Origin: Nitrospirota bacterium
GTDB taxonomy: Bacteria; Nitrospirota; Thermodesulfovibrionia; Thermodesulfovibrionales; Dissulfurispiraceae
Assembly: GCA_015233655.1 (NCBI GenBank)
Contig: JADFXI010000015.1
Coordinates: 1-38,233 of the forward strand
DNA length: 38,233 nucleotides
Direction: 5' to 3'
Part shown: one piece after another, positions 7,550 through 28,926 of the stretch
Layout: the number at the start of each line of letters is the position of its first letter
Position numbering within the stretch: position 1 is the first letter of the stretch
Translations under genes and position numbers: made by a program
Notes under the pieces: generated by a model
The model's database searches: none
The model's input: the letters and a program-made list of their open reading frames with translations, nothing else
What the model was told of the DNA's origin: nothing

Positions 7550-8397
7550 TTTTTAGTAAAGAATGATCGTTTAAGTTTAACAAGATAAAAAAGACAGATA
7601 CCGCTTACAAGTACGGCCAACAATATTGCCAACGGCAGTTTCAGTCCATGCCAGATGCCTTTCTTCATGACAACGATGTTCCCCGAAGCTACACTCAAAT
7701 AGCGGTACGAAGTGTCCTCGTAAATAATAAGCGCAAAAACAGGATAGGTGCTTCCCGGAAGTCCCCCCGTATTTTTAACGTCGAACGAAAGTTTTTTTTC
7801 ATCACCTGGTGACACGGCAATTTCCTGCAATCTGTTCTGTACAGCAAACTCTTTGGAAGTCACCAGCCGCACCAAGACTTTTCTTTCAATTTCATCGGTG
7901 TTTTTTACGGAAACCTTCAGTTTTTCGCTGCCGGACAGGTTAAGGGTACCGACAGAGCCCGCCACACGGGCATTGGGCGATTCCTGGTAATCGGCATAGT
8001 TTATGGTCAACGCATTAAAAGGGTATTGGTTCGCGTCGGTATAATCAACTGATATAAGCACCGGATACCGGCCCGGCTTTTCAAAAATAACCGGGGTAGT
8101 GAATTCCTCGGTAAACTGTTCATTCGGCCCCAGTACCCTGCGGGCCTTTCCATAAGTCCGCTTGCCCTGGACTTCGACGCTCGTTTTCACATTCTCTGCC
8201 GGTTCATCTCCCTTGTTCGTCACCTTTACAGATGTCCTTAAACTATTCTGAAACAGCTCCACTCCTGCCTCTATCTCGATAGAAATAAAAGAAGCAGCCG
8301 ACGGATCGGGGCACACAACTCCCAACATAAGGAGTAGTACCAAGAAAAAATATATTTTCCGCATCATTGTCATGTCACTCATTTTAGCCCACATCAT
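7546..8397 (-). CDS. Exported membrane-anchored beta-sandwich protein
   Basis: 283 residues from the ATG that overlaps the upstream stop; an in-frame ATG at 8367 (MMRKIYFFLVLLLML) would give a more ordinary signal peptide. After the signal come two beta-rich segments resembling CARDB/NEW3-type Ig-like modules: VKVTNKGDEPAENVKTSVEV (about residues 55-75), and VKNTDEIERKVLVRLV to FDVKNTGGLPGSTYPVF (about 160-220). A single transmembrane helix (PLAILLAVLVSGICLFYLV) sits near the C-terminus, followed by a basic tail (KLKRSFFTKK), so the bulk should face the periplasm. No catalytic motif is visible. Operon position suggests it accompanies the glycosyltransferase in envelope work. Confidence 0.8.
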   Translation of the reverse strand: MMWAKMSDMTMMRKIYFFLVLLLMLGVVCPDPSAASFISIEIEAGVELFQNSLRTSVKVTNKGDEPAENVKTSVEVQGKRTYGKARRVLGPNEQFTEEFTTPVIFEKPGRYPVLISVDYTDANQYPFNALTINYADYQESPNARVAGSVGTLNLSGSEKLKVSVKNTDEIERKVLVRLVTSKEFAVQNRLQEIAVSPGDEKKLSFDVKNTGGLPGSTYPVFALIIYEDTSYRYLSVASGNIVVMKKGIWHGLKLPLAILLAVLVSGICLFYLVKLKRSFFTKK

Positions 8398-9170: not shown

Positions 9171-10394
9171 TTATGAACTGCCGTACTTAGGTTTCTCACC
9201 TTGCACGGCTTCGCCTATAATTTCCACAATATGCTTCACATTGCCTCCTTTTATGCCGCTTCTAAGCTGCAGGACGCAGTTAGGGCAGGAGGTGACTATC
9301 ATGCCTGCATCCTTATAAGACTCCACCTTTTTTTCGAGAAGTCCCTTGGACATGTCAGGATACAATATCCTGAACGTTCCGGCCAGTCCGCAGCACCCCT
9401 TTTCAGAATCAATGGGACTGATTCCTGCCGACTTCAGCACCGCCCTCGGTTCGGCCTGCAGACCAAGACTATATATTGCATGGCAGGGATCGTGGTAAGC
9501 TACGCTGGACAAGATTTGGCCCATGTCTTTCTTTATCTCGGGCTTCTCTGAGCTGAAAAACATGGTAACATCCATCGCTCTCTTAACGCCGTCGCCGATT
9601 AATTTTCTGTATTCGTCCCTGATAAAATAGACGCATGTCGGACAAAGGCCGATGATCGCTTCCACGCTCATTTTTCTGAACAACTTCATATTTCTCTCCG
9701 CCAGTTCAGCGGCATCCTCTTCAAAGCCCAGCCCCAGAAGGGGTGCGCCGCAGCAAACTTCTCCCTTCGGGACCACGACATCGAAGTTCATACTGTTTAA
9801 AATAGTTATTAGTGAACTGCCGATGTGAGGGTAAAGGAAGTTAACAGTGCATCCCGCAAACACAGCGACCCGGCCTCTCGGTCTTGCCACCTTGAAAAGA
9901 GAAGTGCCGTCCCTGAGCGACGGACCGGTTATATTTACGCCCATCTCATGCAGCGTCCTGAAATAAGGGAGTTTATGCACCGGCAGCAATTCCCCCAATC
10001 CATCAAGAAATTTCAGCACCTTAAAGCCGGTGGAGGCCCTTTTGAAAGCAAGCCTGGCAGCAACCCCGAGGAATCTCCTTCTCTTGCCTGACTTCCTGAG
10101 GCTCTTTCTTCCTTCGTAGACAGCGTCGGTGATATTGATGCCCAAGGGACAAAGTGTATTGCACGCCCCGCAAAGCATACAGCTGAATATTCTTTCGTCG
10201 AGTATTTCGGACGGCCCGATCTCTCCCTCTATATATTTTTTAAGCAGGATAACGCGGCCCCTGGCACTCATCCCTTCGGTAACATCCTCGCCATATGTCG
10301 GACACTGGGCCTTGCAACTGCCGCACCTAACGCACAAATCCAGATCATGCGCAGAGCGCAAAATACCCCTTCCCTCTTCCGGCGCGTTATTCAT
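9171..10394 (-). CDS. GlcF-like (Fe-S)-binding oxidoreductase subunit
   Basis: 407 residues. Two ferredoxin motifs are complete: CVRCGSCKAQCP (Cys21, 24, 27, 31) and CMLCGACNTLCP (Cys72, 75, 78, 82). Two CCG-type domains follow, with GEVCCGAPLLGLG near residue 215 and GCCGLAGTF near residue 335; these usually bind a further Fe-S or heterodisulfide-type centre. The layout is that of GlcF, the electron-carrying subunit of glycolate or lactate oxidases, and of HdrD-like proteins. No GlcD-type FAD subunit lies next to it. Its start overlaps larE by eight bases (GGGAAGCTGA precedes the ATG). The pairing with LarE hints at 2-hydroxyacid metabolism, but this is inference. Confidence 0.88.
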   Translation of the reverse strand: MNNAPEEGRGILRSAHDLDLCVRCGSCKAQCPTYGEDVTEGMSARGRVILLKKYIEGEIGPSEILDERIFSCMLCGACNTLCPLGINITDAVYEGRKSLRKSGKRRRFLGVAARLAFKRASTGFKVLKFLDGLGELLPVHKLPYFRTLHEMGVNITGPSLRDGTSLFKVARPRGRVAVFAGCTVNFLYPHIGSSLITILNSMNFDVVVPKGEVCCGAPLLGLGFEEDAAELAERNMKLFRKMSVEAIIGLCPTCVYFIRDEYRKLIGDGVKRAMDVTMFFSSEKPEIKKDMGQILSSVAYHDPCHAIYSLGLQAEPRAVLKSAGISPIDSEKGCCGLAGTFRILYPDMSKGLLEKKVESYKDAGMIVTSCPNCVLQLRSGIKGGNVKHIVEIIGEAVQGEKPKYGSS

Positions 10395-16362: not shown

Positions 16363-18537
16363 TTATTGTTGTTCTATGACCCTGGGCGTTATGAAGATCA
16401 ACAGTTCGTCCGTACTCGTTGTCTTGGCATTCCTCTTGAACAGCGCTCCCAGAAGCGGTATCTTGGAAAGGCCGGGGATGTTGCTCTCACTGTCCTGATC
16501 AGTAGTTGATAAAATGCCTCCCATTACTACAGTCTCCCCGTCCTTTATCAACACCTGCGTCGAGGCCTCGTTTGTCGTTATGGACGGCAGTCCCTGCGAT
16601 GTGTTGGAGAAATCAGCCGAGTCTTTGTTCGCCACTATGGTCAGAAGAATTGTGTTGTCAGGACCGATCTGGGGTGTTACGGTAAGACCCAGTGCGGCAT
16701 CGATAAATTGGACCTGCGTACCGGAATTGGAAACAGTGGAGTAAGGAATTTTTCGGCCCTGCTTGATTACCGCCTTTTCATTATCAAGTGTCATTATCTT
16801 CGGACTCGAAACGATCTTGCCTTTACCGTTCGATTCGAGAGCCGATATTCTCAAGTCCAGCCCCAGGGTCCGCGCGGCATTAAGATAGCCGACCGTAAAG
16901 GCCCCTGTAGGCGCCCCCGATGTGCCGAGCGACACGAGTGTAGGGAAATAGCTTGCAAGGGGGTTAACAGTAGGCGTAGTACCTCCTCCCCCTCCTGTAG
17001 CGCCGGGAAGATTATTAACAGAGGTCGCACCGCTGACTGCGGTGGAAGAAGCGGAACCTACCCCATACATGGCCGATCTCGATGCATTGGGAGACAAGTA
17101 GCCGCTCCACTCGACGCCGAGTTCGTTACTGAAATTCTTTGAGACCTCGACAATCCTCGCCTCGATCAATACCTGGCGGGTAGGCTTGTCGAGTGTTTCG
17201 ACAAGCTTGCCCATTTCCTCAAGACTCGATGGAATGTCCTTAACTATTATAGAGCGGGTCCTGGGATCAGTGCTGATATTGCCCCTTGAAGTAAGTAATT
17301 TTGCTTTGTCAATCGCGTCCTTTACTTTATCGACATTCGCATAGTTGACTATAAAAATTTTTGTCTCGATATTTACAAGCTCTTTCTCGGCTGCTGCAGA
17401 CTTCTGCTCCTCCTGGTATGCTGTTTTGGTAATAATCCTGATAACATTTCCATCCACAACCTTTTCGAGCCCGAAGGTCTTCAGGATTATGTCGAGCGCC
17501 TGGTTCCAGGGCACGTCGTAAAGCTTCATGCTTATCTTCTTGCCCTTGACATCATCGGGGTTGACAACAATGTTGCAGCCGGTCATATCATAATTCAATA
17601 TTCCCATTATCGCCACAATATCGGCATCCTGCATGTCAAAGGAGACCGGCTGTTTTTTGCCTCCTCCCCTGCAGTCGCCATTCGCGGCTGTCGCAGTCTT
17701 CCCGCTCTTTGTGCCGGAAGAGGTTATATTGACGATCAACTCGTCATCAAGCGCAGCTACAGAAGCCTTCGCTCCCGGCTCCATATCAATGATAAAGCGC
17801 AGCTTATCTTTCTCCTTCCTGTATTGGATGCCTTTAACAGGCAACGCAATGTCCGAAGGCAGCGGCGCATCGGTCTCGACATCAGCGATATCAACTATGA
17901 CCCGGCCTTCTGATTTGTATACCACGGGTTCCGGGACGGTCCCGTCGCCTTTCAATACCACTGCAGCGCCATCAGCTGTCTTACTGAACCGCAGACCTGT
18001 TATTTCGTCGGCATATGCAGGTCCTGAATCCTCAGCAGCGTTTTCGTCACCATCCTCCGAAGCGCCCTCCGCTTTTTCGACGTCATGCGTATCTGCTTCC
18101 GCAGGTGCGACTGCGGCAGCCTTCCCGTCTTCTTTGATCGTCAGGAGAAGGACATTGTCCCTTACCTCGGGCGTTAGCATGGCCGGCGCCTGGAGCAATA
18201 TGTTCAGTCGCGCAACAACAGACGGTTTCAGTATCTGGATAGGGTTAATCTCGGTGACCCCTGCGCGGTCAGGATACATCTTCTCTGAAAAAAAACCGAG
18301 ACGGGCCCTTTCAATGTCCACAGTGACCCTGAATGGATCGTCAGTATGATTAATCTTATAAGTTATAGGGGCATCAGTCGTGATCCGTATTGCATGGTCG
18401 AGCACTACTATGCCGGTTATTTCAGCGTCTTTCAGAGTTTTGTCTGAGGCTTGTATTTCGGCAAGAGATGCCAGCACGATTGAAAGCGATAAAAGAAAAA
18501 CTCCGGCAAGCGCCCAACTTATCTTCTTTATCTTCAT
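16363..18537 (-). CDS. pilQ: PilQ, type IV pilus secretin
   Basis: 724 residues with a signal peptide (WALAGVFLLSLSIVLASLAEIQA). In order: two AMIN domains that bind peptidoglycan (about 33-135 and 180-275), an STN/N0 domain (about 300-385, QPVSFDMQDADIVAIMGIL), a secretin N domain (about 393-460, KIFIVNYANVDKVKDAI) and the secretin channel (about 560-724), including VIKQGRKIPYSTV and GGILSTTDQDSESNIPGLSKIPLLGALF. A glycine- and threonine-rich segment (GATGGGGGTTPT) lies just before the channel core. PilQ forms the outer-membrane gate for the pilus. It overlaps pilP by four bases and is last in pilMNOPQ. Confidence 0.96.
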   Translation of the reverse strand: MKIKKISWALAGVFLLSLSIVLASLAEIQASDKTLKDAEITGIVVLDHAIRITTDAPITYKINHTDDPFRVTVDIERARLGFFSEKMYPDRAGVTEINPIQILKPSVVARLNILLQAPAMLTPEVRDNVLLLTIKEDGKAAAVAPAEADTHDVEKAEGASEDGDENAAEDSGPAYADEITGLRFSKTADGAAVVLKGDGTVPEPVVYKSEGRVIVDIADVETDAPLPSDIALPVKGIQYRKEKDKLRFIIDMEPGAKASVAALDDELIVNITSSGTKSGKTATAANGDCRGGGKKQPVSFDMQDADIVAIMGILNYDMTGCNIVVNPDDVKGKKISMKLYDVPWNQALDIILKTFGLEKVVDGNVIRIITKTAYQEEQKSAAAEKELVNIETKIFIVNYANVDKVKDAIDKAKLLTSRGNISTDPRTRSIIVKDIPSSLEEMGKLVETLDKPTRQVLIEARIVEVSKNFSNELGVEWSGYLSPNASRSAMYGVGSASSTAVSGATSVNNLPGATGGGGGTTPTVNPLASYFPTLVSLGTSGAPTGAFTVGYLNAARTLGLDLRISALESNGKGKIVSSPKIMTLDNEKAVIKQGRKIPYSTVSNSGTQVQFIDAALGLTVTPQIGPDNTILLTIVANKDSADFSNTSQGLPSITTNEASTQVLIKDGETVVMGGILSTTDQDSESNIPGLSKIPLLGALFKRNAKTTSTDELLIFITPRVIEQQ

Positions 18538-19172
18538 CCCTCTTCCCCCCGGCGCAGTTTAAAAACAGAATCCTGTGGTCTCACAATCCCCCTGTAATCT
18601 TTCAAAAACTCCCTAATAATAACAGAATCCGGCGCGATTTTATATACCTTGCCGCTGTGCAACCCGATGATCGTACCTTCCCGCAAAGTGAAGTTCTTGC
18701 CGTCAGGTGACAAAAACAATGCGTAAAATCCGGACTTGTTCCATAAGATAGCGGTCAGCTTAAACGAGGTAACGTCATAACTTTCGAGAGGTGGAGCGCC
18801 CTTTCTCTTCTCGGTCTCAACCTGCACCAGCAAAGACGCAAATGGATCTCTTCTGCCCCTCGAGCTATATTCATAAGCAGGAGGCGCAACTGTCGTCCGG
18901 GCAGTCCCCGGCGGAGTTGCGACAGGCGCAACCTCCGGCTTCTTTGTTTCCGCAGTAACAGCTGTCTGGACGCCTTTCACCGCCGCAGGCGGGGGAGGCG
19001 CAGGAGTCACCGCTATGGGTTGCGGCTTTGGCGCAGCAGGCTGCGCAGCCTTGATCACTTTGGCAGGCTTGGAACCAGAATACATTATAAAACCTACAGC
19101 GGCAGCAATAATTATCAGAACGCCCAGGACAGCCGCCAGCAGAGTTTTGTTATTGATGGAGAGCTTTTTCAT
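18534..19172 (-). CDS. pilP: PilP, pilus assembly lipoprotein-like subunit
   Basis: 212 residues. An N-terminal transmembrane segment (LLAAVLGVLIIIAAAVGFIMY) anchors the protein; there is no lipobox cysteine, unlike the classical PilP lipoprotein. A long proline- and alanine-rich linker (about 45-100) leads to the globular domain opening with SSRGRRDPFASLL, the RDPF motif that marks PilP, then LTAILWNKSGFYALF and the C-terminal strands. PilP bridges PilN/PilO to the secretin PilQ in the periplasm. It overlaps pilO and pilQ by four bases each. Confidence 0.9.
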   Translation of the reverse strand: MKKLSINNKTLLAAVLGVLIIIAAAVGFIMYSGSKPAKVIKAAQPAAPKPQPIAVTPAPPPPAAVKGVQTAVTAETKKPEVAPVATPPGTARTTVAPPAYEYSSRGRRDPFASLLVQVETEKRKGAPPLESYDVTSFKLTAILWNKSGFYALFLSPDGKNFTLREGTIIGLHSGKVYKIAPDSVIIREFLKDYRGIVRPQDSVFKLRRGEEG

Positions 19173-19810
19173 TTCTTTTGCGCCTTCTGCTGCAGTTCCT
19201 TCTTTTCCTTCTCCGGAATCAGGGAGTATGTTATCGCCGAAAAATTCACATTAAGGCCTGTCATGCCGCGCGGGAACACCTTTGGATCGCCTGGTCGCAT
19301 CGTTATATTCGCAATATTCACAATCCTGCTTAGCGCGGTCACATTGCTGAAGAACTGGCCGAACTGATGATAAGATCCGCGCATTTCGACATCAACGGGA
19401 ATAACATAGATTTCGTTGCTCTGATGCACGCTCCTTGTCCCCGGCCTCCAGGATGCCACCTGTAAGCCTGACTTTACACCGAGTTCAGATACCTGCTTCA
19501 AAAGACCGGACACCTCTTTCTCTTCAGGGAGTTGAAGCTGCAATTCAAAGAGCTGGTCGCTAAGCCGCTTGTTGTCGGCCCGCAATTGCGGCAGGGCGGC
19601 AGTGTTTTTCTGCAAAGTCCCGATCTCGGTCATCTGTTTGCCGGTCTCCTCCTCCAGGGCTTTCTTCTCATCCAGGCCCGGGACAACCAGAAAATAGACC
19701 GTGAGCGCAATTATCAGTACAGGCGGAATGGCGAGCAGCAAATTCTTCTTGAGCGGAGAGAGTGCTTCAAGTTTTGAACCTGTCTGCGCCAAAGTTTCCT
19801 TAATATTCAT
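19169..19810 (-). CDS. pilO: PilO, inner-membrane pilus alignment subunit
   Basis: 213 residues. One transmembrane helix (NLLLAIPPVLIIALTVYFLV, about 24-43) is followed by a coiled coil (KALEEETGKQMTEIGTLQKN to SDQLFELQLQLPEEKEVSGLL) and a ferredoxin-like fold (VDVEMRGSYHQFGQFFSNVTAL). This is the PilO layout; PilO pairs with PilN and binds PilP to form the alignment complex across the inner membrane. The gene starts seven bases after pilN stops and overlaps pilP by four. Confidence 0.92.
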   Translation of the reverse strand: MNIKETLAQTGSKLEALSPLKKNLLLAIPPVLIIALTVYFLVVPGLDEKKALEEETGKQMTEIGTLQKNTAALPQLRADNKRLSDQLFELQLQLPEEKEVSGLLKQVSELGVKSGLQVASWRPGTRSVHQSNEIYVIPVDVEMRGSYHQFGQFFSNVTALSRIVNIANITMRPGDPKVFPRGMTGLNVNFSAITYSLIPEKEKKELQQKAQKK

Positions 19811-19817
19811 GACCGGG

Positions 19818-20432
19818 TCACACCTTCACCCTGAAACTGACTTTGAAATGATAGATCCTGGGTTTTTCAGCTGACTTTGCCTCCCGTTCCTTTCCTTCCT
19901 GCTCCAATGCATCCATCATTCTGGATTTTTTGGGAGCGGCCTGCTCCGCGGCTTCCCTTGATTCCTCAAGATACGTATCGGTTAGCACTGAAGAGTTCTT
20001 CAAATTGTCTATAAAAGAAACAACATCTATATTCGAAAATGCGACGCCTTCAAGGCTGATTCCGTTGTCCCTGAAAACAAGAGAAGTCAGCCAGACTGCA
20101 TCTGGAACAAGCATGTTCACTTCATCAAGGACCCGCACAGGGATGGATTGAGTATTCCGCAGCGATTCTATAAGCTTGCCTCTCGCCTCAAGTTCCTTAT
20201 TGAGCTTTTCAAGTTTTCTTATTTCATTGATCTTGGTAGAGAGCTTTGCGATAGCGGCCTTATTGGCCTCGCTCTGCTCTTTCAGTCTGGCGATCCCGCT
20301 ATGCAGCCATAGAGTTGCGCCTCCGGCAATAAGCAGGGCAGCCACGTTTGCCACGAAAAGAGACAGGAGCAGGTTCTGCGGTCCTTTTGCTTTTTTCTTT
20401 CTCTTCTCTGTCAGCAGGTTTATTCTAATCAT
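19818..20432 (-). CDS. pilN: PilN, inner-membrane pilus alignment subunit
   Basis: 204 residues. The cytoplasmic N-terminus MIRINLLTEKRKKK carries the INLL peptide that inserts into PilM. A transmembrane helix follows (LFVANVAALLIAGGATLWL, about 27-46), then a coiled coil (RLKEQSEANKAAIAKLSTKINEI region) and a periplasmic domain (IPVRVLDEVNMLVPDAVWLTSL). A lysine- and glutamate-rich insert (KKSRMMDALEQEGKEREAKS) precedes the final strand and is longer than usual. Its ATG overlaps the pilM stop by four bases. Confidence 0.93.
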   Translation of the reverse strand: MIRINLLTEKRKKKAKGPQNLLLSLFVANVAALLIAGGATLWLHSGIARLKEQSEANKAAIAKLSTKINEIRKLEKLNKELEARGKLIESLRNTQSIPVRVLDEVNMLVPDAVWLTSLVFRDNGISLEGVAFSNIDVVSFIDNLKNSSVLTDTYLEESREAAEQAAPKKSRMMDALEQEGKEREAKSAEKPRIYHFKVSFRVKV

Positions 20433-21511
20433 AGTTTGTCCCCGCCGCGACGCAAGGCAAGTCCAACAGCTACAGCCGCAATCGGGGCCATCTTCCTGAC
20501 ATACCCCGGGTCAAGCTTGTCCGAGATCTTTATGTTATTGAAAGGATCGGCGACATTAACCTGCATGCCGAGTTTTTCAGCCATCATTTCCGGGAACCCT
20601 TTTATGAGAGCTGCTCCTCCGCTCAGAATGACTTCGGACACTTCTGTCTCGTCAGCAACGCTGCTTTTGAAATATTCAAAAGAACGGTAAATCTCAGTAT
20701 AAATTTCATCCGAGGCGGACGTCATGGCGAGTTGCACGCTTTCAGGCGACACCCCGGCAACGGATTCCCCCATCTTCAGCTTCTCGGCATTCTGCCAGGT
20801 AATTTCAAGTTCCCTTTCGAGTGTTTCCGTATGATAATTGCTTCCCATTGCGCTGTCTCTCGTAAAGACCGGACGGCCCTCATGCAAGACATTTATATTA
20901 GTTTTGCTCGCGCCGACATTTACAAGGGCCACATTCTTCTTGTCCGTACCGGCATAGCAAAGCTCGTACATGTTGCTCAATGCAAAAGCATCTACATCAA
21001 GGATAAGGGCGTCCAGGCCCGCGAGTTCAATTACCTCAGCGTAATCGGAAATTACGTTCTTCTTCGCAGCAACAAGGAGCACGTCCATCTGCCCCTCTTC
21101 GTCCGCCTTGGGACCGATAATCTCAAAATCTATGTTCACATCATTAATGTCAAAGGGTATGTACTGTTCAGCTTCATACCTGATCGAAGTGCCGAGTTCT
21201 TCTGCGCTCATCGCGGGCACGGCTATTTTCTTAATAATGACCGACGAATGCCCTGACACGCCGATAACCGCTTCTCCACCCCTCGCGCCGGCCTTTTTCA
21301 AGACTTCCTTTACTGCAGCCGCCAGCCTTTTTTTATCTGTAATGTTTCCTTCGACTATAAGGTCATGGTCCAGCGGAAGAATGCTCATGAGAGACAGCTC
21401 GTAGCCGTCTTTGGCGTTGTTGAGTTGAACAGCCTTGATATAGCCTGAACCTATATCAAGTCCGATAGGGTTCTTCTTTTTAAAGTTCAACAGTTCTTTT
21501 AGAGGTTTCAT
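20429..21511 (-). CDS. pilM: PilM, actin-like pilus assembly ATPase
   Basis: 360 residues of the FtsA/PilM actin fold: GLDIGSGYIKAVQL for the first phosphate-binding loop, VIGVSGHSSVIIKKIAVP, YIPFDINDVNIDFEIIGP, LVNVGASKTNINVLHEG for the second phosphate-binding loop, and VILSGGAALIKGFPEMM near the adenosine site. PilM sits on the cytoplasmic face and binds PilN. It is the first gene of pilMNOPQ. No ribosome-binding site is apparent before its ATG (AGCGAAACG). Two candidate promoters lie upstream: a close TATAAT box and a sigma-54 element about 65-90 bases away. Confidence 0.96.
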   Translation of the reverse strand: MKPLKELLNFKKKNPIGLDIGSGYIKAVQLNNAKDGYELSLMSILPLDHDLIVEGNITDKKRLAAAVKEVLKKAGARGGEAVIGVSGHSSVIIKKIAVPAMSAEELGTSIRYEAEQYIPFDINDVNIDFEIIGPKADEEGQMDVLLVAAKKNVISDYAEVIELAGLDALILDVDAFALSNMYELCYAGTDKKNVALVNVGASKTNINVLHEGRPVFTRDSAMGSNYHTETLERELEITWQNAEKLKMGESVAGVSPESVQLAMTSASDEIYTEIYRSFEYFKSSVADETEVSEVILSGGAALIKGFPEMMAEKLGMQVNVADPFNNIKISDKLDPGYVRKMAPIAAVAVGLALRRGGDKL

Positions 21512-21551: not shown

Positions 21552-21586
21552 TTTTGAATTCCCATAGTTGCCCAAGCTCTTATGCA

Positions 21587-21602
21587 GGCAAATACCGTGC
21601 CT
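21587..21602 (-). promoter_or_regulatory. Sigma-54 (-24/-12) promoter for pilMNOPQ
   Basis: The minus strand reads AGGCACGGTATTTGCC. Against the RpoN consensus TGGCACG-N4-TTGCW, it keeps GGCACG and TTGC, with the GG and GC doublets exactly ten bases apart; only the two outer positions differ. Transcription would start near 21576, about 65 bases before pilM. The element also lies in a 7-base inverted repeat (GCAGGCA/TGCCTGC, 21584-21604). Sigma-54 control with the activator PilR is known for pilin genes in other bacteria. Confidence 0.65.
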
Positions 21603-21815
21603 GCTAATGTTACACCGCCGACCAGACGAAGAAGCTCTATTCGTGATCAGAGATAAGGCACATTACTGTTAGCCAAAATGACAGTCGGCAGAATAAAAAC
21701 GTCATAAATTTGACATTATTGTTCGTCTCAATGAGATAAACTTTAGAAAATACTCCTAAAGTGCGGCAACCCTCTGCCTAAGGGGTATTGTGCTTGACAA
21801 AGTATTATACGCTTG

Positions 21816-21844: not shown

Positions 21845-21900
21845 GTGGACGGTAAAAGGAGCCGCCCAATACTTTCTTGCTATTCGAAAAGGAGAATAAA

Positions 21901-23511
21901 ATGAAGAGGGGATTGAAAACATTACTGGTACTTTCTCTGTCTTTTATAATGTCTGTTATACTCATACAATGCGGAGGGGGACACGCTCCGCAAAGCACCA
22001 GTCCATCCTCATCGTCATCTTCGTCATCCAACCCTGCTTCGTTAACACTCGTATCCATAGCAGTTACTCCTGCCGCGTCCAGTATAGCAGGCGGGACAAC
22101 CCAACAATTCACAGCTACCGGGACGTATTCGGACAAGTCCACCCAGAACATATCTTCAATCGTGACATGGACTTCATCGGATGCATCGGTAGCCACGATT
22201 AACGCCACCGGCAAGGCCACATCAATAGCTGCGGGTACCACAACGATCAAAGCAACTTCATCAAGTATCGTGGGCTTTACAACGCTGACAGTTTCGACTG
22301 CCACGCTCGTATCCATCGCAGTCACACCAGCTAATCCGAGTATAGCCACCGGCACGAGTGAACAATTCACGGCAACGGGGACCTTTTCCGACAAAACTAC
22401 TCAGAACATTACATCGTCCGCAACATGGAGTTCATCAACCGTCTCCGTCGCCGCCGTAGACTCCAATGGAAAAGCCACATCGGCATCTGCCGGTGCTACT
22501 ACAATCATGGCCATATCTGGGAATGTCTCAGGCTCCACAACATTGACGGTTACTGCACCGAATACTTTGAACTCGTTGACCTACAATGTCGGCATTAATC
22601 CTACGAGCATTGCTATTGATTCAGCCGGCAATGTTTGGGTGACGGATTTCGGCGGCAACAACGTCACTAAATTAAGCTCCACAGGGACTGTCCTCGGCGC
22701 ATTCCAGGTAGGCAGCGGTCCTTACGGCATCGCCATAGATTCCATAGGCAATGTGTGGGTGACAAATTACTACTCCAATAACGTAATGGAATTAAGCGCC
22801 GCCGGAGCCCTTCTTGGAACATTCACAGTCGGTAACGGTCCGCGCGGGATCGCCATTGACTCCCAGGGAAACGTGTGGGTAGCCAACCAGGGCAGCGGCA
22901 GCCCTCTGGGAAACACCGTTACAAAGTTGAGTTCCAGCGGGGCCGCTCTCGGAACGTTCCAGGTAGGCCTCGGACCATGGGGCATTGCCGTAGATTCGCA
23001 GGGCAATGTGTGGGTATCGAATTACGGAAGCGCTGACTCTCTCGGCAGCAGTGTCACGGAGTTAAGCTCCACCGGCTCCGTACTAGGCACTTTCCAGGTA
23101 GGCAACGGTCCGCAAGGCATTGCCATAGACCCATCAGGCCATATATGGGTGGCTAACACCGGCAGTGACACGGCTGCAGGCAATACCGTCGCAGAGTTGA
23201 GTTCCAGCGGATCGCTTATAAAGACTTTTTCCGTGGGCAGTGAGCCGCGTGGCATAGCCATTGAGACATCGGGGAATGTCTGGGTGTCGAATTCCGGCAG
23301 CACAACTTCGCCCGGAAATACACTGTCAGAGTTAAGCTCCAGTGGCTCATCGCTCAATACTTTCAAAGTCGGAAACAATCCCGGCGGAATTGCGATAGAC
23401 TTCTCAGGCAATGTGTGGGTTGCAAATTATTACGACAACACAGTTACTGTTTGGAAAGGAGCGACCACAGGAAATCATTTCGTTCCCTACAATGGACCCA
23501 TTTGGCCGTAA
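21901..23511 (+). CDS. Surface lipoprotein with two Ig-like domains and a seven-bladed NHL-like propeller
   Basis: 536 residues from ATG 21901, chosen over the track start at 21877 because AAAGGAG stands five bases before it. The signal peptide ends LIQCGGG, a plausible though not perfect lipobox, then a serine run (about residues 36-45). Two bacterial Ig-like (Big_2) domains lie at about 50-134 and 135-220 (LVSIAVTP ... TTLTVS). From about 225 there are seven NVWVxNxxxNxVxxLS blades with linking GPxGIAIDSxG turns; the leading half-repeat [11 protein letters not shown] could close the ring with the last blade. The C-terminus is [13 protein letters not shown]. Likely exported and cell-surface; binding partner unknown. 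A paralogue follows immediately. Confidence 0.88.
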
Positions 23512-23543
23512 GAAGTGGGAAATGGCAGCGTGTCAGGGATTGC

Positions 23544-23572
23544 TTGACATCAGAGAGCTAATTGATTAATAT
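23544..23572 (+). promoter_or_regulatory. Putative promoter of the second surface-protein gene
   Basis: TTGACA (23544-23549) is 17 bases from TAATAT (23567-23572), inside the 117-base gap between the two paralogues. The leader to the TTG start at 23629 would be about 50 bases and ends in GGGGGCTTAA. The gene may therefore be transcribed independently of the first. Confidence 0.5.
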
Positions 23573-23628
23573 GATGTTTAAGCTGTGCGCTATTAATGAT
23601 TACTGTATATGGCCTAACGGGGGCTTAA

Positions 23629-26600
23629 TTGCAAGAGCAAATTGAGGGACAGGAGGACCACTTTACGAAGGGACTCTCCGGCATTTCAGCTTTGATTAGA
23701 TATGGCAGAGCAAAACTGTCTCTTAAGATTGTGCTGCCTCTTTTAGTCTGCCTGCTGTCTTTCACAATGCTCCCGGTCAACGAATGCCAGGGGGCCTCGC
23801 CTGTTGCGAATATCGGGGTATACGGCAGCGGCACATGGATGCTGGACTATCCCGGCACAGGCTCGTGGGCCGGATGCGGAGCGCCCTCAGACTCCACAAA
23901 AGATACTTGCTTCTACGGCTTTGGGTGGGAATCAGACGATGTCCCTGTTGTCGGGGACTGGAACGGCGACGGCAGGGCGAAAATCGGCGTTTACAGAAAT
24001 GGCGCCTGGTATCTTGACTATCCCGGTACAGGCTCATGGGTGGGATGCGGTGCGCCTTCAGACCCTACAAAAGATGCCTGCTTTTCATTTGGCTGGACTG
24101 GCGGCACACCTGTTGTCGGAGATTGGAATGGAAACGGAAAATCAAAGATAGGAGTATACGGCAACGGCACATGGCTTCTTGACTATCCCGGTACAGGCTC
24201 GTGGATAGGCTGCGGCGCTCCTTCTGACACTTCAAAAGATGCCTGTTTCTATGGTTTTGGCTGGTTGTCAATTGATGTGCCTGTTGTAGGAGATTGGAGC
24301 GGAAGCGGCAAGACCAATATCGGTATATACAGAAGCGGCTCATGGTATCTCGATTATCCCGGCACTGGCTCGTGGATAGGCTGCGGCGCTCCTTCTGATG
24401 CAACTAAAGACGCATGCTTCTATGGCTTCGGCTGGAATTCCACCGATGTCCCCGTTGTTGGGGACTGGAGCGGAAACGGCAAGACTAAAATCGGTATTTA
24501 CAGGAGCAGCGGCAGTTGGTATCTCGACTACCCGGGCACTGGCTCGTGGATCGGCTGCGGTGCGCCTTCGGACACTACTAAGAACGCCTGTTTTTATGGC
24601 TTTGGATGGTCGGGCGCTGTCCCAATAGTAGGCAGCTGGAAAGGAAAGTCGTCAGGCGGCAACAGTGCTTCTCTTGTATCTATCGCGGTTACTCCGGCAA
24701 ATTCGAGTCTTGCCGTCGGGTCGTCTAAACAGTTTGCCGCTACCGGTACTTATTCGGACGGCAGCACCCAGGACATTACTTCATCCGTCACTTGGGCATC
24801 GACTCTGACGTCTGTCGCTACCATCAGTAATGTGTCAGGCGCAAACGGCTTGGGTTCCTCCGTAGCTCCGGGCACAACAACAATCTCGGCCACATCAGGC
24901 AGTATAGCCGGTTCCACTACCCTGACAGTCAGCAGGGCAACGCTTGTATCTATTGCAGTAACTCCTGCCAATCCGACTATCGCCAAGGGCGGAACTGAAC
25001 AGTTTACTGCCACCGGGACTTATTCAGACGGCAGCACTCAGATTATCACTTCATCTGTTACATGGAGTTCATCTGCAACATCCGTCGCCACTATTGCAGG
25101 AACTAATGGACTGGCATCCTCCGTAGCCACCGGCACAACAATCATCTCTGCCATTTCAGGAAGCATATCAGGCACCACCACACTTACCGTCACGCCGGCA
25201 ACTCTTGCATCCATCACAATCACTCCTGCTAATCCAAGCATCGCCAGTGGAACAATTAAGCAGTTTTCGGCCACTGGTAATTATACAGATGATAGTACAA
25301 AAGATCTTACGGCATCAGTTACATGGAGTTCATCTGCGGCGACGGTCGCAACCATCAGCAACGTACCAGGTTCCAGCGGACTGGCGACCTCAACTTCGGC
25401 AGGCACGACGATAATTTCAGCCACGCTGGGAAATGTATCGGGCACGACTACGCTGACAGTTACACAGCCGACACTCGTCTCTATTGCGGTCAGTCCGGCT
25501 AATCCGAGTATAGGGGTTGCGTCGACCAAACAATTCACGGCCACAGGGACTTATTCTGACGGCAGTACGCAGAACCTGACCACATCAGTGACATGGACAT
25601 CGGCACTGACGTCTGTTGCAACGGTCAGTAACGTATCAGGCTCAAACGGACTGGCCACTTCTGTTGCTGCAGGCACAACTACTATATCCGCAACGTCAGG
25701 CATAATATCGGGTACTGCCACGCTTACAGTTACTGCAGCAACGCTTTCGTTTATCTCTGTCACTCCAACCTCGCCTAGCATTGTCCTTGGCACTACGCAG
25801 CAGTTTACTGCAACCGGGACCAATACGGACGGCAGTGTTCAGAATCTTACGGCTTCAGTATCATGGAGTTCGTCATCCGCATCGGTAGCAACAATCAGCA
25901 ATGCATCGGGCTCCAATGGCAAAGCGACCTCCGTTGCTGCCGGTTCCACTACAATCACGGCAACTCTGGGCAGCGTATCGGGCTCCAGCACGCTTACAGT
26001 CACTTCACCGACAGCTACTACGCCGTCCTCTTATACTACGCCCATAGTTGGGGTCCTTCCTTCCAGCCTTGCCATAGACTATACAGGCAATGTTTGGGTA
26101 ACAAACTTCGGCATCAACACGGCTACAGAGCTGCTCACAGGCATGACCTCCTCTGGCGGTGTTGTAAATGCACCTATATCACTTAACACATGGCAGTTTG
26201 GCGGTGCCAGTCCTTTTGGCATTGCAATAGACTACACTAATGACATATGGATGACAAACTATGACAGTTTCAATGGCGGTTACGCTATTACAATGTTGGA
26301 ACAAAGCCAGCCTGCATGGGACAACACCGGCGGCTGTCCGGTTTCAGCTGCAGGTTCGTGTGATTGTCCTTCAGTTTATCCGCTCTTAGGCAAAACAAAA
26401 GACGCTGGGGGAGACAAGTTTTACACATATACAGCAGGGACCGGGCCTCGTGGTATGGCGATAGACGGCTCAGGCAATGTCTGGGTAACAAATTACGGCA
26501 CTAACACAATCACAGAGTATTCTCCTACCTATTATTTTTGCCCGAGCAGCGCAACAAAACCTGGCCATGTGGCTGTAACCTCCGCTTCCTATTCTGTAGG

Positions 26601-27117
26601 CAATAATCCATACGGCGTCGCCATAGACTCGCTCAGTCATATATGGGTATCGAATTACGGCAGCAATACTGTTACGGAGTTAAGCTCCAGCGGCACGGTG
26701 CTCGGCACTACGACAGTCGGCACCAGACCTATGGGCATTGCTGTGGACCCGTTAGGCAACGTATGGGTAGCCAACTCCGGCGACAATACGGTTACAAAGT
26801 TAAGCTACACCGGCACAGTGCTCGGGACATTCTCGGTCGGTTCGGTACCGCACAACATTGCTATAGAGACGTCCGGCAATGTATGGGTGACCAACTTCGG
26901 CACTACGACTTCTCCAGGCAATACCGTTTCAGTGCTGAACACCAGCGGGACACTGATCAACACTTTTACAGTCGGGAAAAATCCGGAAGGGATTGCAATC
27001 GATTTCTGGGGCAATGTTTGGGTGTCAAACTACTACGACAATACCCTTACAGTATGGAAAGGAGCGACATCAGGACCTCACTTCTCTCCTTACAGCGGAC
27101 CTATTTGGCCGCAGTAA
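23629..27117 (+). CDS. Large exported protein: five cysteine-paired modules, five Ig-like domains, NHL-like propeller
   Basis: 1162 residues starting at TTG 23629 after GGGGG; TTG 23692 is an alternative giving a more normal signal peptide. The hydrophobic signal is IVLPLLVCLLSF, with likely cleavage after ECQGA. Residues about 60-340 hold five modules of 55-58 residues, each with IGVYxxGxWYLDYPGTGSW, then GCGAPSD..K..CF, and (modules 1-4) a VVGDWNGDG-type loop resembling FG-GAP/VCBS calcium loops. Five Big_2 Ig-like domains follow (about 350-800). A seven-blade propeller (about 807-1162) has cysteine-containing insertions after blades 2 and 3, and the tail matches the upstream protein (GPIWPQ). 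Probably a cell-surface or secreted protein; its ligand is unknown. Confidence 0.87.
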   Translation: MQEQIEGQEDHFTKGLSGISALIRYGRAKLSLKIVLPLLVCLLSFTMLPVNECQGASPVANIGVYGSGTWMLDYPGTGSWAGCGAPSDSTKDTCFYGFGWESDDVPVVGDWNGDGRAKIGVYRNGAWYLDYPGTGSWVGCGAPSDPTKDACFSFGWTGGTPVVGDWNGNGKSKIGVYGNGTWLLDYPGTGSWIGCGAPSDTSKDACFYGFGWLSIDVPVVGDWSGSGKTNIGIYRSGSWYLDYPGTGSWIGCGAPSDATKDACFYGFGWNSTDVPVVGDWSGNGKTKIGIYRSSGSWYLDYPGTGSWIGCGAPSDTTKNACFYGFGWSGAVPIVGSWKGKSSGGNSASLVSIAVTPANSSLAVGSSKQFAATGTYSDGSTQDITSSVTWASTLTSVATISNVSGANGLGSSVAPGTTTISATSGSIAGSTTLTVSRATLVSIAVTPANPTIAKGGTEQFTATGTYSDGSTQIITSSVTWSSSATSVATIAGTNGLASSVATGTTIISAISGSISGTTTLTVTPATLASITITPANPSIASGTIKQFSATGNYTDDSTKDLTASVTWSSSAATVATISNVPGSSGLATSTSAGTTIISATLGNVSGTTTLTVTQPTLVSIAVSPANPSIGVASTKQFTATGTYSDGSTQNLTTSVTWTSALTSVATVSNVSGSNGLATSVAAGTTTISATSGIISGTATLTVTAATLSFISVTPTSPSIVLGTTQQFTATGTNTDGSVQNLTASVSWSSSSASVATISNASGSNGKATSVAAGSTTITATLGSVSGSSTLTVTSPTATTPSSYTTPIVGVLPSSLAIDYTGNVWVTNFGINTATELLTGMTSSGGVVNAPISLNTWQFGGASPFGIAIDYTNDIWMTNYDSFNGGYAITMLEQSQPAWDNTGGCPVSAAGSCDCPSVYPLLGKTKDAGGDKFYTYTAGTGPRGMAIDGSGNVWVTNYGTNTITEYSPTYYFCPSSATKPGHVAVTSASYSVGNNPYGVAIDSLSHIWVSNYGSNTVTELSSSGTVLGTTTVGTRPMGIAVDPLGNVWVANSGDNTVTKLSYTGTVLGTFSVGSVPHNIAIETSGNVWVTNFGTTTSPGNTVSVLNTSGTLINTFTVGKNPEGIAIDFWGNVWVSNYYDNTLTVWKGATSGPHFSPYSGPIWPQ
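23806..24645 (+). repeat. Five tandem ~170-base coding repeats
   Basis: DNA-level tandem repeats underlie the five cysteine-paired protein modules. Words such as TATCCCGG(C/T)AC(A/T)GGCTCGTGG recur in every unit, with mainly synonymous differences between copies. The repeats stay in frame, so they are a protein architecture rather than a CRISPR-like array. Confidence 0.85.
24670..26015 (+). repeat. Five tandem Ig-like coding repeats (about 260 bases each)
   Basis: Each unit encodes [13 protein letters not shown] ... [15 protein letters not shown] ... SVTWSS ... TTTISATSGSxSGTTTLTVT. Similarity is visible at the DNA level as well as in protein. The related gene upstream has two copies, so unit number differs between the paralogues. 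Long antisense frames over this region are by-products of the periodicity. Confidence 0.85.
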
Positions 27118-27126
27118 AAAAACAGG

Positions 27127-28050
27127 TCATTTTTTCAGCATGAAAGATTTGTATTTCGGATATTCCTCTTCGACTTTTTCCATTAATCTTTCAATCTGAG
27201 CCGACTTTGTCAGCCCTATGAATGCAAGGTCTTTCTCAATAAAACCATAGTTGTCGCCGATGCCTATCTTCAGTTCAGAACATACATAGTTGGCTGCCTT
27301 GACCAGCAAAACGTCAAAGGCATGTTCGTTGTCGGCTATGTCGGAAGCCGTAAGGTGGTGCATCGAAATTACGCTGCGGATTTCGACAGGCATACGCCAT
27401 TTTTTTGCTACATAATCACCTATTCCACAGTGGCTGAAACCGAAGGCCGCAAATTCCACCTCCTCGAAAGGCTTGGCTGCGGACCTGACTTCATCTATCA
27501 CAGCAGCATATTTTTCTTTGAAGTTAATGTTCATCACCATTTTACCGATGTCATGCAGCAAGCCATGGATAAAATGCTCGCCCAGTCTGCCTGCCCCCAG
27601 TTGAACGGCAATCAGCCTGGACGCAACTGCAACGGCGGTGCTGTGTTCCCAAAGTCCTTCATCGATTGCGTCAGAGCCCCTTCGGAGGTCTTTCAGCGCA
27701 GACATTACAACAATGTCACTAACGGCCTCGAACCCCATATTCATGATAGCCTCGTCAATTGAACTCACTTTATCGCCCCTGCAGAAATAAGGCGAATTGG
27801 CGACTTTCAGTACGCGTGAAGTAAATGCCGGGTCAAAAGAAATAACTTCTGCCAGGTCGTCCGCATTCAGCATCTCTTCGCTAAGCATGTCCAGCACCCT
27901 GGCGGCAATCACCGGAAGCGACGGGATGTCCAGTTTCGAAGCGTCGGCAATTTCCTCGAAATCATCATCTTTATGCGTGTTCATATGAAATATCATAAGC
28001 AATATAAATAATAAAGTGCAACTGTATTTATGAACTGAGGTGCCGCGCAT
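27127..28050 (-). CDS. HDOD domain signalling protein
   Basis: 307 residues from the ATG at 28050, which has GAGAGGGGAAGTGAG upstream; an alternative ATG at 27984 (MNTHKDDDF) removes a hydrophobic N-terminal stretch and matches usual HDOD starts. The HDOD domain covers about residues 35-240: LDIPSLPVIAARVLDML, VISFDPAFTSRVLKVANSPYF, then an HD-like GLLHDIGKMVMNIN and HCGIGDYVAKKWRMP. HDOD proteins lack phosphodiesterase activity in most studied cases and act as partners in two-component or second-messenger signalling. It converges on the second surface-protein gene with nine bases between stops. Confidence 0.9.
   Translation of the reverse strand: MRGTSVHKYSCTLLFILLMIFHMNTHKDDDFEEIADASKLDIPSLPVIAARVLDMLSEEMLNADDLAEVISFDPAFTSRVLKVANSPYFCRGDKVSSIDEAIMNMGFEAVSDIVVMSALKDLRRGSDAIDEGLWEHSTAVAVASRLIAVQLGAGRLGEHFIHGLLHDIGKMVMNINFKEKYAAVIDEVRSAAKPFEEVEFAAFGFSHCGIGDYVAKKWRMPVEIRSVISMHHLTASDIADNEHAFDVLLVKAANYVCSELKIGIGDNYGFIEKDLAFIGLTKSAQIERLMEKVEEEYPKYKSFMLKK
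27992..28021 (-). promoter_or_regulatory. Alternative HDOD promoter implying a leaderless start
   Basis: On the minus strand TTGCAC (28021-28016) and TATGAT (27997-27992) are 18 bases apart, with the ATG of the shorter HDOD form beginning eight bases after the -10. If used, the message would start at or next to the 27984 ATG, which has no ribosome site. A tentative match in AT-rich DNA. Confidence 0.3.
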
Positions 28051-28079
28051 TGACTCACTTCCCCTCTCTCGAATATAAT
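28050..28079 (+). promoter_or_regulatory. Promoter of the methyltransferase gene
   Basis: TTGACT (28050-28055) is followed after 18 bases by a perfect TATAAT (28074-28079), with predicted transcription start near 28086 and a short leader to GTG 28111. It overlaps the start region of the divergent HDOD gene. Confidence 0.6.
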
Positions 28080-28110
28080 CAGGAAAAGTCCTCGACCATA
28101 CCTTATTTCT

Positions 28111-28926
28111 GTGAAACCAATATCAAATACTGCTTTTTATTGCTGCGGCATACGAATGGATGACGCCGAGGGCGCTCATCCTGTTTGTGGAGACGACTAT
28201 GCCAAAGTCTTTATGGATGATGCGGCAATGCGAATTTACGGCCCTTTCAGGGGAGACACAAGGACAAATGCCGTCAGCGTGGCGCGCCACAGGATCATAG
28301 ACGACTTTCTGCGCACTGAGCTTGCTGAAGATCGAAACACCCGCGTATTGATAATAGGCTCCGGTTTTGACAGCCGGCCCTATCGTCTTGAAGGGGGCAT
28401 ATGGCTTGAGTTTGATGAGCCGCAGGTCATCGCGTACAAGAATGAGAGGCTGCCGGTATCGGACTGCCGAAACGAACTGCAACGCATAGCTGTTGACTTC
28501 TCGATGGATTCGCTGGAGAAGAAACTTTCCGATATCCCGCCAGGACGCAACACAATAATAGTCATTGAGGGCGTTTTAATGTACCTGGACCATACATCCA
28601 TCAATAAGCTGCTTCAAACTCTGCGTCGTATTTTTCCATGCCACACGTTAGTCTGCGACCTGGTGACCCGAAAATTCTTTGAGAAATACAGCAGGAAGCT
28701 GCATGAAAAACTGCGAAACCTGGGGGCGGTATTCCAATATGCTGTCGACAGCCCCCCCGAAATCTTCCTCGATAATGGGTACATCCTTAAAGACACGGAG
28801 TCTGTAGTCGGCAAGGCAGTAGAATACGGCTCAATGCACATCCCGGAACCTGTCTTAAGGGTGTTCCTCCGTACCCTGGCAAACGGCTATAACATTTATC
28901 TCTTTGAATCAAAGCAGATGTTATAA
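28111..28926 (+). CDS. Class I SAM-dependent methyltransferase, leucine carboxyl methyltransferase (LCMT/PPM) family
   Basis: 271 residues beginning at GTG 28111. HPVCGDDYAKVF near the N-terminus and the AdoMet-binding motif VLIIGSGFDSRPYRL (about residues 79-93) identify the PF04072 family, as do WLEFDEPQVIAYK and VIEGVLMYLDHTSI. Bacterial members are O-methyltransferases of largely unknown substrate, some acting on polyketides or small acids; the eukaryotic enzymes methylate a protein C-terminus. No signal or membrane segment. A strong promoter lies 30-60 bases upstream. It converges on aspS with nine bases between. Confidence 0.88.
   Translation: MKPISNTAFYCCGIRMDDAEGAHPVCGDDYAKVFMDDAAMRIYGPFRGDTRTNAVSVARHRIIDDFLRTELAEDRNTRVLIIGSGFDSRPYRLEGGIWLEFDEPQVIAYKNERLPVSDCRNELQRIAVDFSMDSLEKKLSDIPPGRNTIIVIEGVLMYLDHTSINKLLQTLRRIFPCHTLVCDLVTRKFFEKYSRKLHEKLRNLGAVFQYAVDSPPEIFLDNGYILKDTESVVGKAVEYGSMHIPEPVLRVFLRTLANGYNIYLFESKQML

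Follow-up and report, generated by a model that had tools for sequence, protein, structure and literature searches.

Sequence elements upstream of pilMNOPQ suggest that a pilus-base operon has joined the flagellar hierarchy in one family of Nitrospirota

Results

The DNA analyzed here (the window, 38,233 nucleotides) belongs to the draft genome of an uncultured Nitrospirota bacterium (G000; 3.29 Mb, 262 contigs, 84% complete) and carries on its minus strand a pilus alignment and secretin operon with the gene order pilM-N-O-P-Q. The operon consists of pilM (20429 to 21511, ATG at 21511; PF11104, PilM_2, E 3.5e-77; TIGR01175), pilN (19818 to 20432; PF05137), pilO (19169 to 19810; PF04350), pilP (18534 to 19172; PF04351), and the secretin gene pilQ (16363 to 18537; PF00263, AMIN; TIGR02515). 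The immediate upstream neighbor of pilM is aspS in 18 relatives, while in the window other genes separate the two; positions 21877 to 28926, between aspS and pilM, encode two Big_2/NHL-repeat proteins, one HDOD protein, and one methyltransferase. Retrieval with PilM gave, as named relatives, Nitrospirae metagenome bins and one Thermodesulfovibrio, and the compared genomes are mostly metagenome bins. The source genome also encodes RpoN (PF04552, E 3.2e-60), a FliA-type sigma factor scoring above the family cut-off, and 31 matches to the sigma-54 activator domain. No Rfam family was found in the region.

A preliminary description of this DNA had placed a GG-N10-GC element on the minus strand upstream of pilM and proposed that RpoN controls the operon. 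The sequence confirms the element. The minus strand from 21604 to 21584 is GCAGGCACGGTATTTGCCTGC and contains the predicted sigma-54 core CAGGCACGGTATTTGCC (21587 to 21603, minus strand), in which exactly ten bases separate the GG (21601-21600) from the GC (21589-21588). The distance of about 65 bases to pilM given in that description holds for the predicted transcription start (21576, 12 bases past the -12 C and 65 bases before the pilM ATG) and not for the core itself, which lies 76 to 92 bases upstream of pilM. The core has two mismatches to TGGCACG-N4-TTGCW, and on a weight matrix that approximates the published RpoN consensus, it ranks first in the window (15.8; runner-up, 11.1). A strict sigma-54 pattern matches 12 sites across the source genome, and a loose RpoN consensus (three mismatches or fewer) matches the window 47 times against 55 expected, which is no excess. 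Because loose matching alone is uninformative, the weight of the sigma-54 assignment rests on conservation. When the 450 bp upstream of pilM were scanned in 29 genomes of the family with a score cut-off of 13.3 (chance per sequence, 0.0074 under a first-order Markov model), six genomes had a sigma-54 site, namely, the window, G001 of the same genus, G004 and G016 of a second genus, and G018 and G006 of a third, and all six sites fall 64 to 107 bases before pilM. With rpoN present and the GG-N10-GC element kept before pilM in five relatives, one of them from the window's own genus, the prediction that pilMNOPQ is under sigma-54 control is well supported.

It is also conceivable that an ordinary sigma-70 promoter drives pilM and that the sigma-54 match is fortuitous, for example, from TGGATA-N17-TATAAT at 21551-21523, whose hexamers agree with the consensus at 10 of 12 positions. 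Sigma-70-like elements are indeed usual in this place: in the other families of the order, all 20 pilM upstream regions that were fetched contain TTGAC-N16-18 some 30 to 70 bases before pilM, and many members of the window's own family, including most of the relatives, likewise have a TTGAC element just upstream. The window hexamers, however, lie in very A/T-rich DNA and include a poor -35, the ancestral TTGACA-N17 is missing at its position here, and the five relatives in which the sigma-54 element is kept have no TTGACA-N17 beside pilM either. We thus regard a sigma-70 promoter as quite unlikely to account for pilM transcription in the window, and we favor the sigma-54 core.

The core coincides with a perfect inverted repeat, GCAGGCA/TGCCTGC (21584 to 21604), whose arms (21584-21590 and 21598-21604) are 100% complementary and 7 nucleotides apart, just as the preliminary description had it; the inverted-repeat listing bears this out. 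The same description had suggested that another factor might occlude the promoter through this palindrome, that is, that a repressor bound to it as an operator would block sigma-54 binding. Among simulated sigma-54 sites, a repeat in the exact register seen here arose in only 0.08%, which speaks for such an operator, but the sigma-54 motif by itself contains part of the dyad (GGCA...TGC), a perfect repeat of 7 bp touching the site anywhere arose in 0.66%, and the five relatives with a sigma-54 site keep only 3 to 5 of the 7 pairs. An operator at this position therefore appears very improbable, and the repeat is probably incidental and without a role.

Farther upstream, about 98 bases from the -24 element, lies an enhancer-like box, TGTCAAATTTATGACG (21700 to 21715, minus strand), with the GTCA-N6-TGAC arms of the FleQ consensus. 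It is a conserved sequence match to an activator-type site and differs by one mismatch from the flagellar box TGTCATATTTATGACR, which marks the start of a FleQ-like flagellar activator gene in G001 and in most of the other genomes of the family that were checked; its 14-bp form, with GTCA/TGAC arms and an A/T centre, is GTCAAATTTATGAC. On a matrix of flagellar boxes it scores 24.2, better than 99% of random boxes built with these arms. A perfect TGTCA-N6-TGACR occurs upstream of pilM in 5 of the 29 genomes (the window, G004, G002, G018, and G006), with a chance of 0.0005 each, a figure obtained after the fact since the dyad was first spotted by eye in these same sequences. In four of the five it stands upstream of the sigma-54 site, and G002 has no such site; G001, the sole other genome of the window's genus, has the sigma-54 site and no perfect box. 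Genome-wide, TGTCA-N6-TGACR occurs in the source genome in two places only, one of them within the nadA coding sequence, and since control matches are at least as many, the dyad alone proves little. The composite of dyad and sigma-54 site (70 to 100 bases apart) was found six times in 60 genomes, four times at pilM, against one control match; a fifth match (L150 in G025) lies on a contig with a FleQ-like helix-turn-helix gene. A possible second box, TGTCATTTTGGCTAACA (21667 to 21683, minus strand), 32 bases from the first, is weak, degenerate, and half-conserved, and comparable weak elements lie 31 to 42 bases from the first box in G004, G018, and G006.

How well these boxes resemble flagellar ones differs between genomes. 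By sequence, the window and G002 have a strong assignment and G004 a moderate one. It is weak for G018 and G006, because the centres of their dyads do not look flagellar; they share only the arms and have no A/T centre (G006, 7.6, and G018, 9.7, against a random mean of 12.0).

An independent test covered 13 flagellar loci (217 kb), picked by an FlrC-like activator or fliA, and showed a strong enrichment of the dyad: GTCA-N6-TGAC occurs 24 times, and these arms at any other spacing (2-5 and 7-12) 1 to 5 times. The distance from the dyad to a following sigma-54 site is 53 to 54 bases in four of these loci and 57 in a fifth; among them is the source genome's own fliL, with a box at L219:9439 and a sigma-54 site at 9493. 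The published FleQ consensus is GTCaNTAAAtTGAC (PMC6120874), and FleQ sites are described as inverted repeats, GTCAAT/ATTGAC, separated by two bases (PMC10723142).

The family also possesses a FleQ-like protein, a sigma-54 activator of about 330 residues without a receiver domain, whose top match among solved structures is Pseudomonas aeruginosa FleQ (E 1.7e-98, across AAA+ and helix-turn-helix). Its gene has GTCATATTTATGAC, or a box much like it, across the promoter and start region in G001 and in most of the other family genomes examined, and in nearly all of those from which the start could be retrieved. We observed the gene starting directly after or inside GTCATATTTATGAC at L221:3062, L225:1003, L231, L229:5326, and others. 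Its TTGAC-type promoter is overlapped by this box, and autorepression conserved across the family is probable. The gene was not found in the 84% complete source assembly, in which contig C219 opens partway through what is, in relatives, the next gene after it; from this synteny and from G001 it is presumably present within the contig gap. Because the gene falls in that gap, we infer the identity of the pilM activator. The FlrC-like protein L192 of the flagellar cluster, found in 28 of 31 genomes, is a possible binder of the box as well. L198, encoded beside motAB and with a receiver-like N terminus, was considered as FleQ and rejected; it has no FleQ-specific family match, and three genomes with the sigma-54 site, G006, G018, and G016, lack it.

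A further candidate activator is PilR, which the preliminary description had brought in by analogy with pilin genes. Acting from the dyad at 21700-21715, it would control the pilM promoter in the manner of classic pilin regulation. The source genome groups pilS, pilR, pilC, and two pilA genes at one locus (L190, contig C207), both pilA genes have sigma-54 sites, and described PilR sites, a NifA-like TGT-N11 motif with GTCT elements (PMC6058289), have the half-site TGTC in common with the dyad. The pilA promoters of at least nine family genomes, however, have boxes of another geometry, TGACA-N5-TGTCA, mostly in tandem; these are absent upstream of pilM in the window, and the pilM dyad agrees instead with the flagellar GTCA-N6-TGAC. 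Activation of pilM by PilR thus found no support and seems unlikely, and as the arrangements at pilM and pilA differ, the two halves of the pilus system seem to obey different activators.

At the pilA genes of the source genome we noted TGACR-N5-TGTCA-type boxes together with sigma-54 sites, ATGGCACG-N4-ATGCT (L190:7093-7131 with 7201, and 7824-7851 with 7923), and in at least eight more family genomes pilins are preceded by a comparable layout. This type of box is a candidate PilR box for Nitrospirota. Separately, a sigma-54 site precedes a LuxR-type regulator gene (L062:1300-1516, G000:C9), and about 200 bases upstream of it TTGACATGATATTGTC resembles the pilA boxes.

Another flagellar-type element is found at pilM, which we interpret as the relic of a sigma-28 promoter (21719 to 21745, minus strand). 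Its -35, TAAAGTTT, is intact and its -10 decayed, with ACGAACAA in place of NCCGATAA, so that the window does not carry the full consensus TAAAGTTT-N11-NCCGATAA; the relic aligns with the consensus sigma-28 sites of G004 and G016. The full consensus stands upstream of pilM in G004, G016, and G002, and a TTCGATAA variant does so in G014 and G023; three sister genera have consensus flagellar sigma-28 promoters before pilM. Among 31 genomes, strict sigma-28 sites number 18 (control, 1), five of them before pilM, and most of the others precede flagellins, fliD, fliW-type clusters, or other flagellar genes. The box and the predicted sigma-28 start overlap in G004 and G002, and one protein could thus repress one promoter and activate another.

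On a PilM tree, flagellar-type promoters appear in several separate clades, and because the deep branches are poorly resolved, a single gain followed by losses and several independent gains both fit. We lean toward the view that, in this one Nitrospirota family, pilMNOPQ moved, perhaps repeatedly, from sigma-70 to the flagellar hierarchy, through a FleQ-type box with sigma-54, through sigma-28, or through both, while the pilins stayed under PilS/PilR.

Two further arrangements upstream of pilM were observed. In G018 and G006 (L022 and L023), a sigma-70-like TTGACA-N17-TACAAA lies near the end of aspS (-286/-267 from pilM), with the dyad and sigma-54 site located between this element and pilM, as would fit the insertion of a new promoter. 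In G007 (L007), TGTGATTGCCGTCACA, a perfect CRP-type site (TGTGA-N6-TCACA), lies about 93 bases upstream of pilM, with TTGACA at -38, and may be yet another, fourth way of controlling pilM within the family.

Discussion

Taking the parts that can be read directly from the DNA (the core, the box, the conservation of both, the sharing of the box with flagellar genes, and rpoN, fliA, and pilS/pilR), we propose that pilMNOPQ has probably been rewired into the flagellar hierarchy via a FleQ-like activator and sigma-54. Sigma-54 RNA polymerase would transcribe the operon from 21587-21603, and an activator sitting on the 21700-21715 box would loop over and open the complex with its ATPase. The likeliest activator would be the family's FleQ/FlrA-like flagellar master regulator. 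Synthesis of the pilus base may thereby be tied to the flagellar programme, with the pilin genes remaining under PilS/PilR.

This arrangement recalls the FleQ/FlrA regulon of P. aeruginosa (FleQ) and Vibrio (FlrA), with which it has in common the GTCA-N6-TGAC box, a sigma-54 activator with a FleQ-like AAA+ domain and a Fis-type helix-turn-helix, and the pairing of box and sigma-54 site at flagellar genes. A sigma-70-like TTGAC element accompanies the FleQ-like gene here, and fleQ has been described as a class I gene transcribed by sigma-70 (PMC6543871). In contrast to FleQ and FlrA, the activator here lacks a receiver domain and has the box across the region of its own start codon, and a pilus alignment and secretin operon is the target. 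PilS/PilR-RpoN control of pilA similarly joins a sigma-54 promoter to activator sites upstream of a pilus gene, although the geometry of the pilM box is unlike that of the family's pilA boxes. As for the sigma-28 (FliA) class, the promoter pattern found before pilM in relatives also finds flagellins, fliD, and fliW-type clusters, but here the target is a pilus operon, and the window copy keeps only an intact -35.

PilMNO-type proteins have been linked with flagella before, in the FcpMNO flagellar cage of Campylobacterota, which is built of PilMNO homologues (PMC11870540). There, the proteins are motor parts, and their genes are reported to lie outside the RpoN/FliA cascade (PMC11870540), whereas here a full pilMNOPQ operon carries flagellar-type promoter elements. 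Cross-talk between pili and flagella has been seen in mutants, such as the effect of PilSR on fleSR (PMC6058289). Our literature search, whose coverage was incomplete, returned no account of FleQ-box, sigma-54, or sigma-28 control of pilMNOPQ and nothing direct on PilR boxes and regulation in Nitrospirota.

If our reading is correct, cross-talk between pilus and flagellum is encoded in the DNA of the pilus-base operon, three sigma-factor classes serve one operon within a single bacterial family, and the evolution of promoter rewiring becomes directly testable. Pilus assembly in these bacteria would then depend on flagellar gene expression, and since the pilins are still under PilS/PilR, building a pilus would need flagellar and PilSR signals together.
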